A DNA stretch of 51,174 nt from Bacilli bacterium (GTDB lineage: Bacteria; Bacillota_I; Bacilli_A; RF39; UBA660), in contig JAFYER010000011.1 in the NCBI GenBank assembly GCA_017544165.1, positions 1 through 51,174 on the forward strand, written 5' to 3'. Shown here piece by piece: positions 26,845 to 35,407 of the stretch (within the stretch, counting starts at the first letter, position 1; every line of letters starts with the position of its first letter). Below the pieces are notes generated by a model. The model made no database searches and had not been told where the DNA came from. It saw only the letters and a program-made list of their open reading frames with translations. The position numbers were made by a program, and so were the translations under genes.

Positions 26845-27984
26845 ATGAAAAAAATTTTTTTAATCATATTAATGCTTATTTTTATTATTCCAAATGTTAA
26901 TGCTTTAGATATGGAGGTCAGTGCCAAAAGTGCAATTTTGATTGATCAAAATACAGGAACAATTTTATATAAGAAAAACGAAAATGAAAGACTTCCTATG
27001 GCTTCTATGACCAAAATAATGAGCCTAATTTTAATAATGGAACAAATAAATGAAGGAAATCTATCCTATGATACTAAAGTAGAAATATCCTCGGAAGCTT
27101 CTTCGATGGGTGGATCTCAAATATTTTTACAGACGGGAGATGTTTATAAAGTTGGCGAACTTTTAAAAAGTATTGCTATGGCTTCAGCTAATGATGCAGT
27201 TGTAGCTCTTGCCGAAAAAACATATGGCTCTAAAGAGGAATTTATTAATAAAATGAATGAAAAAGCTAAAAAAATGGGCCTTAAAAATACAAACTTTGTC
27301 AATGTTCATGGCCTTGATGAGGAAAATCATTATTCCTCTGCTTATGATATGGCTTACATGGCAAAAGAACTATTAAAGTATGATGAAATTTTAAAATTTA
27401 CTTCTGTATATGAAGAGTATTTACAAAAAAGTGATGGATCTAAAATATGGCTTGTTAACACTAACAAACTTGTAAGATTTTATCCAGGTGTTGATGGACT
27501 TAAAACTGGTTATACGCAAAATGCAGGTTATTGTCTTACTGCTACTGCTAAAAAGAATAATCTTCGCCTTATAAGTGTCGTTATGGGTGAGGATTCAATT
27601 GAAAAAAGAAGTCAAGATACGGTTAAACTTTTAAACTATGGTTTTAATAGTTATAAAGTTAATCTCATTAAAAGTAAAGATGAAGTTTTAGGCAAAATAA
27701 AAGTTGAAGGAGGCAAAAAACAATATGTTGATGTTAGCCTTACTGATGATGCGATTGAACTTTTAAAAACAAATGATAAAATTAGTAAATATCAATTTAA
27801 TTTAAAAATAGATAAAATTAAGGCTCCAGTAAAAAAAGGTGATATAGTAGGTAAGGTTGAAATATTAAACGATAATAACAAAAAAATGAATGAATACGAT
27901 ATAACAGTTAATGAAAATGTATTAAAAGCCAATTATTTTGATTATTTAAAAAGAAATTTAAAAAGTGTATTTTTATTTAGTTAA
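26845..27984 (+). CDS. dacF: D-alanyl-D-alanine carboxypeptidase (DacF-like, S11)
   Basis: This 379-residue exported penicillin-binding protein trims peptidoglycan stem peptides. The signal peptide is residues 1-20. ASMTKI (SxxK), MASANDAVV (SxN) and DGLKTGYT (KTG) are all in place, and the C-terminal beta domain (about 265-379) is present with a tail that may bind the membrane. In Bacillus dacF directly precedes spoIIA. Here it lies in the same order, with two other genes inserted, which supports a sporulation-linked role. Confidence 0.92.
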   Translation: MKKIFLIILMLIFIIPNVNALDMEVSAKSAILIDQNTGTILYKKNENERLPMASMTKIMSLILIMEQINEGNLSYDTKVEISSEASSMGGSQIFLQTGDVYKVGELLKSIAMASANDAVVALAEKTYGSKEEFINKMNEKAKKMGLKNTNFVNVHGLDEENHYSSAYDMAYMAKELLKYDEILKFTSVYEEYLQKSDGSKIWLVNTNKLVRFYPGVDGLKTGYTQNAGYCLTATAKKNNLRLISVVMGEDSIEKRSQDTVKLLNYGFNSYKVNLIKSKDEVLGKIKVEGGKKQYVDVSLTDDAIELLKTNDKISKYQFNLKIDKIKAPVKKGDIVGKVEILNDNNKKMNEYDITVNENVLKANYFDYLKRNLKSVFLFS

Positions 27985-29133: not shown

Positions 29134-29940
29134 ATGAATAATGATTTAGCATTAATTGTACTTGATAATTTTAAGGAAATGGGGGATAAAGTCAACAAAG
29201 TAATTAAAAAACTTAAGAAAAATGAGGATGATTATATCATTCCCATAAAACTCGATCGCTTTGCAAATGGGGAAGGAAAAGCAACAATTTTAGAAACAGT
29301 TCGGGATAAAGATGTCTACGTTCTAACTGATATCGGTAATCATAGTTTGACATATAAAATGCATGATTTTGATAATCATTATTCACCTGATGATCACTAT
29401 CAAGATTTAAAAAGAATTATTCTTGCTATGTGTGGGCATGCTAAAAAAATTACTTTAATAATGCCGCTTTTATATGAATCAAGACAACATCGAAGAAAAG
29501 GTAGAGAATCACTTGATTGTGCATATGCCATGCAAGAACTTGCCAGTATGGGTGTTAAGGAAATAATAACGTTTGATGTTCATGATCCAAATCTATGTAA
29601 TGCTGTACCTTTACTTGCATTTGAAAATTTTTATTCGACTGGTAATATTCTAGAACAATTTGCTAAAGATAATAAAGATATATTAAATGATATGCTAATT
29701 GTTAGCCCTGATTTTGGAGCTATGGAAAGGGCAAGATATTATGCTGAAATGCTTTCATGTGAAGTTGGAGTTTTTTATAAACGAAGGGATTTATCAAAAG
29801 TTGTCAATGGCAAAAATCCCATCATTGAACACGCTTATATGGGGGCTGATGTCAAAAATAAAAACATAATTGTTGTAGATGATATGATAGCTTCCGGAAA
29901 TTCTATTTTAGAAGTCGCTCATGAATTAAAAAGGCGCTAA
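29134..29940 (+). CDS. prs: Ribose-phosphate pyrophosphokinase, N-terminal part before a frameshift
   Basis: This 268-residue frame holds most of PRPP synthase, which makes PRPP from ribose-5-phosphate and ATP for nucleotide, His and Trp synthesis. Visible motifs are RFANGEG, PLLYESRQHRRKGRES (catalytic flexible region), TFDVHDP and the PRPP loop VVDDMIASGNSI. The frame stops at TAA 29938-29940, straight after five A (29928-29932). The missing C-terminus continues in the +1 frame from GGC at 29933. It is a divergent member of the family. AGGAGG precedes the ATG. Confidence 0.85.
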   Translation: MNNDLALIVLDNFKEMGDKVNKVIKKLKKNEDDYIIPIKLDRFANGEGKATILETVRDKDVYVLTDIGNHSLTYKMHDFDNHYSPDDHYQDLKRIILAMCGHAKKITLIMPLLYESRQHRRKGRESLDCAYAMQELASMGVKEIITFDVHDPNLCNAVPLLAFENFYSTGNILEQFAKDNKDILNDMLIVSPDFGAMERARYYAEMLSCEVGVFYKRRDLSKVVNGKNPIIEHAYMGADVKNKNIIVVDDMIASGNSILEVAHELKRR

Positions 29941-29944
29941 TAAA

Positions 29945-30223
29945 GTGTTTTTATGCTCAACATTTTCCCTTTTTACCGAAGGCATAGAAAGATTTGAATT
30001 AGCTTATGAAGATAATACCTTTGATGGTCTTTATACAACTAATCTAACTTATATTAAAGATGAAGTAAAAAAGCAAAAATGGTTTAATAGTGTAGATTGT
30101 TCAGAAAAAATAGCAAAAGCAATTGTCACTTTAAATGATGGAAAATCAATATCACCACTTTTAAATGGAAAAGCCGATTTATATAAGAAAATGGAGAAAA
30201 TACAAGGAAGTCATACTAAATAA
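29945..30223 (+). CDS. prs: Ribose-phosphate pyrophosphokinase, C-terminal part in the +1 frame
   Basis: Read from GGC at 29933 the sequence gives GANKVFLCSTFSLFTEG, the expected strand after the PRPP loop, and then about 80 further residues. The whole enzyme would be about 362 residues. The GTG at 29945 has no SD and is probably not a real start. Either the gene carries an inserted A (or an assembly error) or the ribosome shifts +1 at AAA-A before a slow AGG codon. A terminator begins at 30208. Confidence 0.75.
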   Translation: MFLCSTFSLFTEGIERFELAYEDNTFDGLYTTNLTYIKDEVKKQKWFNSVDCSEKIAKAIVTLNDGKSISPLLNGKADLYKKMEKIQGSHTK

Positions 30224-30237
30224 GGTATGACTTTTTT
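30208..30237 (+). terminator. terminator after prs
   Basis: A perfect 9-bp stem AAGTCATAC / GTATGACTT (30208-30216, 30225-30233) is followed by a T run. Confidence 0.85.
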
Positions 30238-30295
30238 GTCGAATTATATTCATATTTTAAAAAAACTGTTAAAACAATTGCTATCTTTTGTCGAA
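30237..30295 (+). promoter_or_regulatory. two Spo0A-box matches upstream of the spoIIA-type operon
   Basis: TGTCGAA occurs at 30237-30243 and again at 30289-30295, each preceded by a T run (TTTTTTGTCGAAT, TTTTGTCGAATC). This is the core of the Spo0A~P binding site TTTGTCGAAA. A candidate -10, TATTAT (30325-30330), would place the nearer box about 45 bases before transcription start. In Bacillus, spoIIA is a direct Spo0A~P target. That Spo0A acts here is inference. Confidence 0.6.
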
Positions 30296-30350
30296 TCTGT
30301 TTAAAACTGTTTCAAAAGTCTCTATATTATTTATAGAAAAGGTGATACCA

Positions 30351-30671
30351 GTGTTAAAAATGGATTTGAGATATGAAAAAAACATATTGTTTATTAACCT
30401 CGAAGGAACACTTAATCGAGGTACTTCATATAAAATAAATAATTTTTTGATTCCTTCGATTTTAAAACATCGTATAAAATATGGCATTTTAAATATAAAA
30501 TCATTAAGAGAAATAGATGAAGATGGAATTGATTCATTATTGAATATTAAATCGTCTTTTAAAAACAATAAGGGTTTATTATTACTACATGAAACAAATG
30601 ATGAAATAATCAAAAGTATTAATAAACTTCATTTAAAAAAAGTTAAATCATTAGATAAAATGGGTGTTTAA
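30351..30671 (+). CDS. spoIIAA: SpoIIAA-like STAS protein with Asp at the phospho-site
   Basis: This 106-residue single STAS domain starts DLRYEKNILFINLEGTLN, like anti-anti-sigma factors. In SpoIIAA the anti-sigma kinase SpoIIAB phosphorylates Ser58 in the DSSG loop. Here the aligned loop is IDEDG, with Asp58 in place of that Ser, so it cannot be switched in the usual way. The GTG at 30351 is preferred because AAAGG stands eight bases before it; ATG 30360 is an alternative. The stop lies one base before the sigF ATG. Identity rests on synteny (dacF ... sigF-spoVA) and the fold pattern. Confidence 0.72.
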   Translation: MLKMDLRYEKNILFINLEGTLNRGTSYKINNFLIPSILKHRIKYGILNIKSLREIDEDGIDSLLNIKSSFKNNKGLLLLHETNDEIIKSINKLHLKKVKSLDKMGV

Positions 30672-30672
30672 A

Positions 30673-31314
30673 ATGCAAATTGAAAAGTTAATCGAAGAAA
30701 ACCAGAAACTTATTTATAAAATTGCTTCCAGCTTTTATAATGTCGATAAAGATGATCTTTATCAAGCGGGTGTTTTAGGTTTGCTTAAAGCTATTAAAAA
30801 ATATAAAAGAGGAAGTAACGCTAAGTTTTCTAGTTATGCTTATGAATATATATATGGAGAAATGTATGCCCTTGTAAATAATCGTAATATTAAAATAAGT
30901 AAAGATATTTTAAAATTATACAAGATGATTGAAAAAACAAGATATGCTTTATGTCAAAAAAATGGGTACATTCCTTCAGATGGGCAAATTGCCGACTTTT
31001 TAGAAATTGATGAAAAAAAGATTAATGAAGCTATTATGGCGGGAAAGGAAATTATGAGTCTTGATGTACATGAATTAATGCCTGTTTATGAGACAATTGC
31101 GTGTGAAGAAAAAACAAGTATAGATGATCAAATAATACTATCTGAAGGGTTAGAAAAATTATCTGATGATGAAAAACAAATAATAAAAGCCCGTTATTAT
31201 GAGGACATGACACAAAGTGAAGTTGCCAAAAAACTTGCCATGACTCAAGTAATGGTTTCTAGATATGAGAAAAAAGGATTATCTAAAATGCAAGAATATA
31301 TGCGACTTTATTAG
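30673..31314 (+). CDS. sigF: Sporulation sigma factor, SigF-like
   Basis: This 213-residue factor belongs to the SigF/SigG/SigB group. Region 2 is DDLYQAGVLGLLKAIKKY followed by FSSYAYEYIYGEMYALV. Region 3 lies around PSDGQIADFLEIDEKKI. Region 4 is LSDDEKQIIKARYYEDMTQ with the helix-turn-helix SEVAKKLAMTQVMVSRYEKK. The ATG at 30673 has GGGTG just upstream; a GTG at 30664 inside spoIIAA is the alternative. Position between spoIIAA-like and spoVAC points to sigma-F, the first forespore factor, though a sigma-G identity cannot be excluded from sequence alone. The usual spoIIAB between it and spoIIAA is absent. Confidence 0.88.
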   Translation: MQIEKLIEENQKLIYKIASSFYNVDKDDLYQAGVLGLLKAIKKYKRGSNAKFSSYAYEYIYGEMYALVNNRNIKISKDILKLYKMIEKTRYALCQKNGYIPSDGQIADFLEIDEKKINEAIMAGKEIMSLDVHELMPVYETIACEEKTSIDDQIILSEGLEKLSDDEKQIIKARYYEDMTQSEVAKKLAMTQVMVSRYEKKGLSKMQEYMRLY

Positions 31315-31348: not shown

Positions 31349-31786
31349 ATGAATAAAGAAGAGTATCAAAAATTAATTAAAGCTAAAAAGCCAAAGGAAC
31401 CAAAGCTAAAAAATGCATTAATTGCTTTTTTTACCGGAGGATTTATGGGCTTTTTTTGTGAAATATTATCAAAATTATTAATTGTTTGGTTAGGCATACC
31501 AAAATCTTTTAGTTATGGAATTATTTGTTTTTTACTAATCCTTTGCGCATCATTTTTTACAGCGTTAGGTTTTTTTGATAACTTAATAGTTAAATATAAA
31601 TGTGGTCTTATTATTCCTACGACTGGCTTTGCACATAGCGTTACATCATCAGCTTTAGAATATAAAAATGATGGTATGATAACTGGACTTGGTTCTAATT
31701 TTTTTAAATTAGCAGGATCTGTAATTTTGTATGGAATTGTTTCGGCATTCTTTTTATGCTTATTGAAGGTGATTTGTTATGCCTAG
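31349..31786 (+). CDS. spoVAC: Stage V sporulation protein AC
   Basis: This 145-residue membrane protein has about four hydrophobic helices. LKNALIAFFTGGFMGFFCEIL, PTTGFAHSVTSSALEYKNDG and GLGSNFFKLAGSVILYGI are conserved in SpoVAC. It is part of the inner-membrane channel that loads dipicolinic acid into the spore and releases it in germination. The end overlaps spoVAD by 8 bp. spoVAA and spoVAB are absent, as in clostridia, leaving the C-D-E core. Confidence 0.95.
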   Translation: MNKEEYQKLIKAKKPKEPKLKNALIAFFTGGFMGFFCEILSKLLIVWLGIPKSFSYGIICFLLILCASFFTALGFFDNLIVKYKCGLIIPTTGFAHSVTSSALEYKNDGMITGLGSNFFKLAGSVILYGIVSAFFLCLLKVICYA

Positions 31787-32738
31787 TTTAAAATTCAAAA
31801 ATGTTTATTTAAAAGATTATTTTACAATTGTTGGACCTAAAGAGAAACAGAGTAAATTAAAAAAGTATGATTTAGATTTTGATGATTATTATTTTGAAAC
31901 TAAAACTTTTGAAATGGCTGAAATAAAAATGCAAAAAATGGTTATCGATAATCTTTTGAAGAAAAATAATATTGATTATATCATAGGTGGAGATTTAATT
32001 AATCAGATTGCTATATCTTCATATGCCGCTAGAAATTGTGGTATTCCATTTGTTGGTATTTATTCCGCATGTTCTAGTTTCGTTGAAGCACTTTTACTAG
32101 CAAGTACCATAATAGATAGTGAAAATGCCCAAAATATTATATGTCTCACATCTTCTCACAATCTAACAGCAGAAAAACAATATCGTTATCCTACTGAGTA
32201 TGGTAATACTAAACCTCATACAGCAACCACAACGGCTACGGGAGCAGTAGGGGCGGTTGTTTCCAAAGAAAAAAGTAGAATAATGATTAAAAATGGTACA
32301 TTTGGCAAAATAATTGATTTAGGAGTAAACGATGCTAATCACATGGGAGCTGTTATGGCTCCAGCTTGTGCAGATACAATTCATAACCATTTAATTAATA
32401 ATAAGAAAAAACCTGATGATTATGATTTGATATTAACGGGTGATTTAGGCAAAATAGGTATTAATATTTTAAAAGAATATTATAAAAATGCCTTCAATGA
32501 AACACTTAACAATGTTGTTGATAGTGGTAGTGAAATATATAAACAAAATCAAGATACCTATTCTGGTGGCAGCGGTCCTTGTTGTCTTCCGTTATATTTT
32601 TTTTGCAACATTTTAACAAAAGAAAAGTATCATAAAATTTTACTTGTTGGAACAGGATCATTACATACCCCGGTACTTGTCAATCAACACCAAACAATTC
32701 CGGCAATATCCCATGTTATAGAAATCGAGGTGCTTTAA
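31779..32738 (+). CDS. spoVAD: Stage V sporulation protein AD
   Basis: This 319-residue protein has a thiolase-like fold, is a peripheral inner-membrane partner of the SpoVA channel and binds dipicolinic acid. GGDLINQIAISSYAARNCGIPF, seen here in two blocks around residues 70-90, is followed by GIYSACSSFVEALLLA, TATGAVGAVV and NDANHMGAVMAPA, all conserved in the family. It is slightly shorter than the Bacillus protein (about 338). Its stop and the spoVAE start share one base. Confidence 0.95.
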   Translation: MPSLKFKNVYLKDYFTIVGPKEKQSKLKKYDLDFDDYYFETKTFEMAEIKMQKMVIDNLLKKNNIDYIIGGDLINQIAISSYAARNCGIPFVGIYSACSSFVEALLLASTIIDSENAQNIICLTSSHNLTAEKQYRYPTEYGNTKPHTATTTATGAVGAVVSKEKSRIMIKNGTFGKIIDLGVNDANHMGAVMAPACADTIHNHLINNKKKPDDYDLILTGDLGKIGINILKEYYKNAFNETLNNVVDSGSEIYKQNQDTYSGGSGPCCLPLYFFCNILTKEKYHKILLVGTGSLHTPVLVNQHQTIPAISHVIEIEVL

Positions 32739-33088
32739 TGATTTATTTAAATGCTTTTTTACTTCCTGCGTTTACTTGCATGATTGGTCAAGTTATATTA
32801 GATAATACGAAACTTACAGCTGGCCATATAACATCGATTTTTACCGTTTTTGGAGCTATATTATCTTTTTTTGGCATTTATCCTATTTTAATTGAAAAAG
32901 CAGGGGCAGGCGCTACTATTTTAATATCCAATTTTGGCCACATGCTTTTTATAGGTGGGATGCAAGGATATAATGAGCAAGGTTTTTTAGGGATTTTTGC
33001 TGGACTTTTAAGCAAAAGTTCTCTTGCTATAACTTCAGCAGTAATAATTGCTTTTGTCTTTTCAATCCTTTTTAAACCAAAAAATTAA
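32738..33088 (+). CDS. spoVAE: Stage V sporulation protein AE
   Basis: This 116-residue membrane protein of the SpoVAEB type has three hydrophobic helices. LPAFTCMIGQVILDNTKLTA GHITS (about residues 8-32) and the glycine-rich GAGATILISNFGH are typical. It completes the C-D-E channel core for dipicolinic acid transport. No terminator is seen before the next gene 66 bases on. Confidence 0.93.
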   Translation: MIYLNAFLLPAFTCMIGQVILDNTKLTAGHITSIFTVFGAILSFFGIYPILIEKAGAGATILISNFGHMLFIGGMQGYNEQGFLGIFAGLLSKSSLAITSAVIIAFVFSILFKPKN

Positions 33089-33154: not shown

Positions 33155-33841
33155 ATGGAAGAGAATAAAACTATAGAAATGCCAGAAACAAATGAGGAAG
33201 CTAGCGTAAATGTTTCACCACTTTTAGCAGAATTTGCAGAGGAGCCAATTGTAGAGGCTCCAGTAGAAACTCAATCAGAGCCTACGATAGAACCTCCAGT
33301 AGTTGAAGAAACCCCAGAATCTGTAGAGCCTGCTGCACCAGTTATTGAATCGCCAGTTGTAACAGAAGAAACTCATGTAGAACCTGCACCTACAATTGAA
33401 AACCCTGTGGTATCTGAAACAAAGGAAGATGCTTATGTGGCTACTCCTGTTATTCCTGAAAAACCTGTAGAAACCGAAGCAACTGTAGTGCAAGATCCTA
33501 TAGTTAGTGAGGAAAGCAATCAAACAGGGGTAGTATCTGTTTCTAAAGAAACTCCAGTGGTTAATGAAGAACCAATCGCTACGCCAGCTGTTTCAGGTGA
33601 GCCTGTTGTTGTAGAAACTCCAGCAGCTACAACTACACAAGTAGAAGCTCCAGTTCAAAAAGCTGAAGGCGAAGTTGCATTAGTTGTTGATGAGAGTACA
33701 ATTGCTGAAAAACCACAAGAAGTTGAAACAGAAAAGAAAAAAGAACCAAGTAAAGTTGCTCAAATAATTGGTACAGCTGTGGTTTTATTAATTACGGCAG
33801 GTCTAGCATATTTAATAATAAGAAATTTTTTAGCGCTTTAA
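33155..33841 (+). CDS. Pro/Glu/Val/Thr-rich tail-anchored protein of unknown function
   Basis: This is a 228-residue protein. Residues 1-195 are a low-complexity acidic stretch of irregular repeats of the type E-x-P-V-V-x-E and V-E-x-P, with almost no aromatic residues, so it should be extended and unstructured. A short basic patch (EKKKEPSK) precedes one C-terminal membrane helix (VAQIIGTAVVLLITAGLAYL), giving a tail-anchored layout with the bulk in the cytosol or intermembrane space. The gene follows spoVAE, and its promoter resembles sigma-E sites, so a spore-morphogenesis role is possible. I recognise no family. Confidence 0.7.
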   Translation: MEENKTIEMPETNEEASVNVSPLLAEFAEEPIVEAPVETQSEPTIEPPVVEETPESVEPAAPVIESPVVTEETHVEPAPTIENPVVSETKEDAYVATPVIPEKPVETEATVVQDPIVSEESNQTGVVSVSKETPVVNEEPIATPAVSGEPVVVETPAATTTQVEAPVQKAEGEVALVVDESTIAEKPQEVETEKKKEPSKVAQIIGTAVVLLITAGLAYLIIRNFLAL

Positions 33842-34152
33842 TTTATTTTTAAAATTTGTTCAAAGATTAAGATTTGATTATTAAAATAGATTTTATGAAA
33901 TGTAGGATCTATTTTTTTAATGGTACCCGTTTTTTGAACAATTTTATCAGCATAAAAATATTCAATACAAATTATTCTTTGCTCATAGAAAGCTTCGATT
34001 AATTTACTTTCAATGTTTTGTTTTTGTTCATCGGAAAAAATGGGCATTTTAAATTTGTTTCTTTCCTGTTGAACGCTATGAACCACTTCTTTGCTAGAAA
34101 TAACGGAGTTAAAGGGAGCCCATTTAATCATCCCTCGATCAATACTAGGCAT
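33838..34152 (-). CDS. YolD-like protein
   Basis: This 104-residue protein starts MPSIDRGMIKWAPFNSV, diagnostic of the YolD family, which accompanies Y-family lesion-bypass polymerases in Firmicutes. Conserved positions continue through CIEYFYADKIVQKTGTIKKID. The start is ATG 34150-34152 with GGAGG five bases upstream; the longer frame from 34182 lies inside the polymerase gene. It overlaps the polymerase stop by eight bases, so the pair is co-translated. The exact action is unknown. Confidence 0.88.
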   Translation of the reverse strand: MPSIDRGMIKWAPFNSVISSKEVVHSVQQERNKFKMPIFSDEQKQNIESKLIEAFYEQRIICIEYFYADKIVQKTGTIKKIDPTFHKIYFNNQILIFEQILKIN

Positions 34153-35407
34153 GATGACCTCCAATTTTTTTATTTCTTTCAATAGCAGTAGAATCTTCGA
34201 GTAAGCATGATGCTTTTAAAAGACTATTTTTACCAAATCTTTGCTTAATTCTATCAATAGCTTCGTTGATATCTTCCTCATCTTTAATATCTTTATAGCT
34301 TGTAAACAAACTTAATTGAACTCCGACTTTTTCACAAAGTCCACCGCAACAAATGGAAACTTTGCGAATAGGTAATTCTTCATAAAATTTATCAAAAATA
34401 ATTTCACATGTATTTAAAATTTCTTTATTAGTATCAGTCGGAGCATCTAATTTTATCGTATGATAAAAACCACCACCAACATTTTTAGAGTAGCCAATTC
34501 CAAACCCAATAATCGTGCATTGTTTACTGCCTTTACGTAGTCGAGCAGTTAAAACTTCGACCATTTCGGAAATAATAATTTTAATATTTTGCGCATTATA
34601 ATCCTTAAATAAAACTTGGGAATGTGAAAATGATTTATCTTTGGGCATTACTTTATAATCGGAAATAACTGATAAATCAATTCCATTAGCGTGATTCCAA
34701 AGTTCAAGACCCATAACACCATATTTATCTTTTAAAATACCTCTTGGCGTTTTAGCTAAATCCTCAAGAGAGTAGATACCTATTTTATTTAAATTTTTTT
34801 CCATTCTAGAGCCAATTCCCCACATTTCACTAAGGGGACTAATCTTCCACAATTTTGTAGGAATGTCATCATAAGTCCATTTAGCAATGCAATCAGCATT
34901 ATGTTTGGCTTCAATATCCATAGATACTTTAGCAAGAAGCATATTAGGTCCAATGCCACATGTAGCAGTAAGGCCAGTTTTTTCTTTTATTTTATCTAAT
35001 ATTTCTAAAGCAAGTTCATAATCAGTTTTTTTATACATTTTTAAATAATGAGTGACATCTAAAAAACATTCGTCAATAGAGTAGATATGCAGGTCTTCTT
35101 CGGAAATATAATCAAGATATACCCCAATAACTTCTTTACTTTTTTTTATATATAAACTCATTCTTGGCATGGCAATATCATATTTTATGCCTTTAGGTAT
35201 TTCAAAAAGTCTTCCACGTGATTTAACTCCTTGTTTTTTTAAAAAAGGAGTTACCGCAAGAGTCATAGCACCATTTCCTTGATTTTTATTAGCTACCACC
35301 AAAGGATAAGAAAAAGGATCAAGACCACGCTCTACACATTCACATGATGCAAAGAAACTTTTTAAATCAATACATAAGATATTTCGGTTAATATAGATAT
35401 TTTCCAT
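34145..35407 (-). CDS. Y-family DNA polymerase (UvrX/UmuC type)
   Basis: This 420-residue lesion-bypass polymerase begins CIDLKSFFASCECVERGLDP, with the first catalytic Asp. YSIDECFLDVT carries the second acidic pair. ATCGIGPNMLLAKVSMDIEA and MWGIGSRMEKNLNKIGI (helix-hairpin-helix of the thumb) follow, then a little-finger domain (about 240-350). UvrX/YqjW-type proteins with YolD partners copy damaged DNA during the SOS response. An SOS-box match overlaps the expected transcription start. Confidence 0.92.
   Translation of the reverse strand: MENIYINRNILCIDLKSFFASCECVERGLDPFSYPLVVANKNQGNGAMTLAVTPFLKKQGVKSRGRLFEIPKGIKYDIAMPRMSLYIKKSKEVIGVYLDYISEEDLHIYSIDECFLDVTHYLKMYKKTDYELALEILDKIKEKTGLTATCGIGPNMLLAKVSMDIEAKHNADCIAKWTYDDIPTKLWKISPLSEMWGIGSRMEKNLNKIGIYSLEDLAKTPRGILKDKYGVMGLELWNHANGIDLSVISDYKVMPKDKSFSHSQVLFKDYNAQNIKIIISEMVEVLTARLRKGSKQCTIIGFGIGYSKNVGGGFYHTIKLDAPTDTNKEILNTCEIIFDKFYEELPIRKVSICCGGLCEKVGVQLSLFTSYKDIKDEEDINEAIDRIKQRFGKNSLLKASCLLEDSTAIERNKKIGGHHA

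Follow-up and report, generated by a model that had tools for sequence, protein, structure and literature searches.

A STAS-sigF gene pair as a family-wide variant of the spoIIA operon in uncultured Bacilli

In the window (the whole stretch of 51,174 nucleotides that was analysed), a spoIIAA-like STAS gene, here named spoIIAA*, directly precedes a sigF-like gene. The STAS-sigF pair is real and represents a variant form of the spoIIA operon that is family-wide in small-genome uncultured Bacilli. As in the Bacillus subtilis operon, a STAS gene stands before sigF, spoVA genes follow, a Spo0A box lies upstream, and the STAS and sigma proteins are homologous. Unlike that system, which consists of SpoIIAA, SpoIIAB and sigma-F together with SpoIIE, the family has neither SpoIIAB nor SpoIIE, most of its members have no phosphorylatable serine, and the residues E21, D23 and R67 are eroded. 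We consider it fairly likely that this is a reduced spoIIA operon from which the switch genes have been lost, with a Spo0A-driven supply of sigma-F and a STAS protein in a phosphorylation-free role.

In the textbook account of sporulation, cell-fate asymmetry begins when SpoIIE, SpoIIAB and SpoIIAA activate sigma-F specifically in the forespore. The whole family keeps sigma-F, the output signal SpoIIR and its receiver SpoIIGA, minus this switch. If the family sporulates, asymmetry can be set in another way; if it does not, its genomes hold a clear record of pathway decay. Both readings can be tested through the conserved Spo0A box and the STAS protein that survives.

That spoIIAB and spoIIE have been lost in the order RF39 is already known. 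The accessible text of Field et al. 2024 (PMC10868615) reports both genes as reduced or absent there, with spoIIGA and others kept, and predicts RF39 spores with different regulation. The window's family agrees with this pattern of gene losses, and that text gives presence and absence only. For the residual pair, the decay of the phosphosite, the Spo0A box and the protein family X (see below), no description was found in the literature searched, which included few subscription papers; within that literature, the conservation of the Spo0A box is new here.

The locus and the identity of its proteins

The genes of the locus are as follows.

26845..27984, plus strand: dacF-like D-Ala-D-Ala carboxypeptidase gene (PF00768, 1.3e-81), two genes upstream of the STAS-sigF pair
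30351..30671, plus strand: spoIIAA* (spoIIAA-like STAS gene), likely GTG start (Pfam STAS, 4.2e-9; family profile against SpoIIAA structures, about 1e-20; structure model with pLDDT 91.5)
30673..31314, plus strand: sigF-like sigma factor gene, ATG start (NCBIfam SigF/SigG models; sigma-F of PDB 1l0o, 1.3e-28)
31349..31786, plus strand: spoVAC (TIGR02838, 4.2e-36)
31779..32738, plus strand: spoVAD (PF07451, 7.8e-104)
32738..33088, plus strand: spoVAE (TIGR02839, 2.5e-30)

The GTG at 30351 is the likeliest start of the STAS gene, with AGGTG upstream at 30340-30344. An earlier, sequence-only reading of the window had described a gap of one base between the STAS gene and sigF, with no spoIIAB between them, and this is correct: the STAS gene ends at 30671 and the sigF ATG begins at 30673. 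It had also given the gene order as dacF, STAS, sigF and spoVAC-AD-AE. The order from the STAS gene through the spoVA genes stands, while the dacF part had to be corrected, as two genes lie between the dacF-like and the STAS gene, one of them Mbeg1-like and the other a prs gene that appears to be frameshifted. A contig labelled Clostridia (L034) carries spoIIAA, spoIIAB and sigF, then one gene on the opposite strand and spoVAC-AD-AE. Since this contig shows the order spoIIAA-spoIIAB-sigF, the window lacks spoIIAB relative to the ancestral order.

Some neighbouring genes are noted in passing. An apparent frameshift near 29940, beside a run of A, divides the prs gene (ribose-phosphate pyrophosphokinase, 29134-30223); either an assembly error or a genuine lesion may explain it. 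Just 3′ of spoVAE, the region 33155-33841 codes for a repetitive protein that is rich in Pro, Glu and Val, has a hydrophobic C-terminal segment and matches no Pfam family. A pair of genes for a YolD-like protein and a Y-family DNA polymerase is found downstream of the spoVA genes on the minus strand (33838-35407).

The STAS protein scores 36.6 bits against Pfam STAS (cut-off 22.6). Taken alone, it matches SpoIIAA structures weakly (E 0.002), whereas a profile of 28 family members reaches about 1e-20 with SpoIIAA (1auz, 1th8, 1tid) and 1e-8 with the next STAS protein. RsbS and RsbV share the STAS fold but score far lower than SpoIIAA with this profile. The predicted structure of the window protein is a confident STAS fold, and its best match in the PDB is SpoIIAA complexed with SpoIIAB. 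In fold and closest homology the protein agrees with SpoIIAA, but its score with the SpoIIAA equivalog TIGR02886 (NCBIfam) is 20.1 bits against a cut-off of 114.75. The sigma factor is assigned to sigma-F by closest homology (best PDB match 1l0o) and by spoIIA/spoVA synteny. It scores 139.7 bits with TIGR02980 and 131.6 bits with spore_sigF, both below the curated cut-offs of these SigB/F/G models; for the sigma-F equivalog TIGR02885 the 131.6 bits stand against a cut-off of 321.45. Because both proteins score under the NCBIfam equivalog cut-offs, they are considered divergent members of their families.

Absence of SpoIIAB and SpoIIE

Profile searches of the window's genome (13 contigs totalling 1.05 Mb, completeness 87.8%) found neither SpoIIAB nor SpoIIE, and a single STAS match in total. 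A spoIIAB gene elsewhere and a second, Ser-bearing SpoIIAA were both sought there as evidence against a lost switch, and neither was found. Among 37 sampled family genomes, none had SpoIIAB above cut-off and none had a SpoIIE-domain match. When the search was extended to 386 family genomes from 150 genera, SpoIIAB again did not exceed its curated cut-off in any of them, and with 0 of 386 it is unlikely that incompleteness of the metagenome-assembled genomes is the cause. Outside the family, SpoIIAB and SpoIIE are both present in all eight Spo0A-positive genomes sampled, compared with none of the 35 family members that have Spo0A (p 7e-9 by Fisher's exact test, which is nominal because the genomes are related). 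That the SpoIIAB/SpoIIE partner switch is missing, as the sequence-only reading had proposed for the window, is borne out and applies to the whole family: the SpoIIA module lacks its SpoIIAB component and its SpoIIE component alike.

PF07228 matches occur in nine of the 386 family genomes. No recognisable SpoIIE was found among the six that were examined, and the remaining three are weak. Five of the six prove to be RsbU-like PP2C proteins, whose HATPase domain is encoded either in the same frame or in the one that follows (loci L119-L123, in G307, G153, G130, G214 and G398), and the sixth is on a likely contaminant contig. A Ser-bearing STAS gene adjoins in L120. The RsbU-like PP2C/HATPase proteins form a distinct signalling cassette that a few members of the family carry, and in this respect these members resemble bacteria with an RsbV/RsbW/RsbU system.

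The phosphorylation site and the partner-facing residues

The residue of SpoIIAA that becomes phosphorylated is S58, and both its SpoIIE interface and its SpoIIAB interface include R67 (PMC11418112). The B. subtilis loop is D57-S58-S59-G60; PDB 1tid has D-A-S-G there. The IDEDG loop that had been noticed in the window protein is real. Its Asp58, however, had been placed at the position of the phosphorylated serine, and this is off by one: as S58 is the first serine of the loop, Glu57 of the window occupies the phosphosite and Asp58 matches Ser59. In 117 distinct family sequences the residue at the site is E (24), M (18), I (17), L (15), N (11), Q (6), S (4), T (2) or another. The proposal of a phospho-mimic SpoIIAA has to be rejected, because the residue is Glu rather than Asp and because the family shows no constraint at this site. 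To judge from the alignment, the variable phosphosite looks like the decay of a site out of use. The flanking D57 and G60 are near-invariant in the family.

The kinase and phosphatase contacts E21, D23 and R67 are replaced by T, N and I in the window. In the family, E21 is conserved in 26, D23 in 12, R67 in one and S58 in four of the 117 sequences, while each of these residues is kept in 9 or 10 of 10 SpoIIAB-bearing references. Conversely, E8 and G12 above all, and also R17, C81 and E106, are near-invariant in the family, whereas the references lack them or conserve them little. From these patterns we read that the surface facing the kinase and the phosphatase has been lost, with selection maintained on the rest of the STAS protein.

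The column of sigma-F E149, a putative SpoIIAB contact, was also considered as proof that this contact is lost. It has K in the window and Y, E, S and others in the family, in a numbering that we take from the B. subtilis sigma-F and sigma-G sequences. This argument is weak, as three other columns are equally or more eroded; sigma-G gave no comparable test.

Control of sigma-F and the role of the STAS protein

Three elements are annotated upstream of spoIIAA*.

30237..30243, plus strand: outer Spo0A-box core TGTCGAA, exact match
30289..30295, plus strand: inner Spo0A-box core TGTCGAA, 62 bp before the STAS start, at a position conserved in the family
30323..30328, plus strand: putative -10-like element TATATT, at +34 from the box, the position of TA-A-TT in the family consensus

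An exact TGTCGAA core occurs within 160 bp upstream of 106 of 117 family STAS genes, while 1.0 is expected from base composition. The boxes cluster about 60 bp before the gene, and the -10-like TA-A-TT follows about 34 bp further on. Thirteen loci are listed without an exact forward box, and most of these have a one-base variant. Four loci with sigF but without a STAS gene have the box 59-73 bp before sigF. These predicted boxes support Spo0A-driven transcription as the surviving control of sigma-F. The idea that sigma-F is set by Spo0A through transcription, raised when the window was first read, is thereby strongly indicated, but it leaves compartment specificity unexplained: transcription alone does not account for forespore specificity. 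For an unlinked regulator, which the first reading had raised as the other possibility, no candidate kinase came up; the short HATPase matches examined are histidine kinases or pieces of such proteins. Of eight relatives that have SpoIIAB, five also carry the Spo0A box; it is therefore an inherited feature and does not prove a switch to control by transcription alone.

In the sample of 37 family genomes, 35 have Spo0A, and the numbers for SpoIIR and for SpoIIGA are the same, so the output route of sigma-F is kept. The sigF gene is present in 32 of the 37 and the STAS gene in 28 of those 32, so that the STAS protein is dispensable in the four that keep sigF without it. By the family profile, the STAS gene is found in 285 of 386 genomes and in 122 of 150 genera. 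It is positioned directly 5′ of sigF in nearly all loci read, with its end at -22 to +140 nt from sigF, and no natural STAS-sigF fusion is among them. One genus is an exception, with metK between the two genes in G010 and no sigF in the stretch read from its genus mate G179.

The reduced operon may have arisen as follows. By the time of the family ancestor, spoIIAB would have gone from an ancestral spoIIAA-spoIIAB-sigF operon and spoIIE from the genome; thereafter the SpoIIAA protein would have lost the site of its phosphorylation and the residues that face the kinase and the phosphatase. Spo0A would bind the box about 60 bp upstream and drive spoIIAA*-sigF, so that the supply of sigma-F would be mainly transcriptional, and sigma-F would then act via the retained route through SpoIIR, SpoIIGA and sigma-E. 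With the kinase and phosphatase that control sigma-F lost, this early step of spore formation would be timed otherwise. The STAS protein probably has a phosphorylation-free role, since it is still conserved in most genera, and it would most simply be a direct, translationally coupled partner of sigma-F.

The STAS protein might instead serve another partner now, a membrane or signalling protein, and its place before sigF might be partly historical. We regard this as unlikely, although a candidate is found in other genera. The candidate, a protein family termed X, is encoded by the gene next to spoIIAA* on its 5′ side in 46 of 114 loci (for example L092:92-1417). Members with a complete 5′ end have a signal-peptide-like start and most have a hydrophobic C-terminal segment; in the model of one member, a beta-rich ectodomain is predicted with confidence, together with a helix at the C-terminus. 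No Pfam family scored above cut-off for four members, no NCBIfam for five, and the model had no significant PDB match. In three genomes of 0.5-1.0 Mb (G127, G086 and G144; loci L236, L237 and L241), the X gene overlaps the STAS gene or its remnant, with neither a following sigF nor a Spo0A box between X and STAS in the stretch read. This favours another partner, but X was not found in the window's genome by profile search, is present in only 97 of 386 family genomes, and in most loci the STAS gene is coupled to sigF. As a partner of STAS in other genera of the family, X is a lead only. A combination of both, in which a phosphorylation-free STAS protein binds sigma-F directly and is tied in many genera to the single-pass membrane protein X, in place of SpoIIE-SpoIIAB-SpoIIAA, is doubtful but perhaps marginally easier to accept. 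The accessible account of MlaB (PMC7367683) describes a single-domain STAS protein which acts by partner binding, not as an anti-anti-sigma factor, and controls the ABC transporter MlaFB. The family STAS protein is likewise of a single domain, but its partner is only proposed whereas that of MlaB is a transporter.

That the operon is a decaying remnant in bacteria which no longer sporulate is less probable still. The genomes are only about 1 Mb, and a few in the family have no sigF match at all. In the window's STAS protein five of the 14 family invariants are gone, and the protein diverges faster than the window's sigF (51% identity to the STAS protein of G003, compared with 73% for sigF), so that constraint on it looks relaxed in the window's own species. 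However, among the genus mates of the window, STAS conservation is equal to or above that of sigF, and the protein is well conserved elsewhere in the family. Intact sigF, spoVAC-AD-AE, Spo0A, SpoIIR, SpoIIGA and Spo0A boxes are found across many genera, which also argues against a mere remnant. It is very improbable that a partner switch persists through an unlinked, very divergent kinase and phosphatase, with the acidic loop of the window and its genus mates as a permanent phospho-mimic: most family genomes do have weak HATPase matches, but the five short ones examined are histidine kinases or fragments and include no candidate SpoIIAB, and most of the family has M, I, L, N or other residues at the phosphosite and has lost the contact residues.
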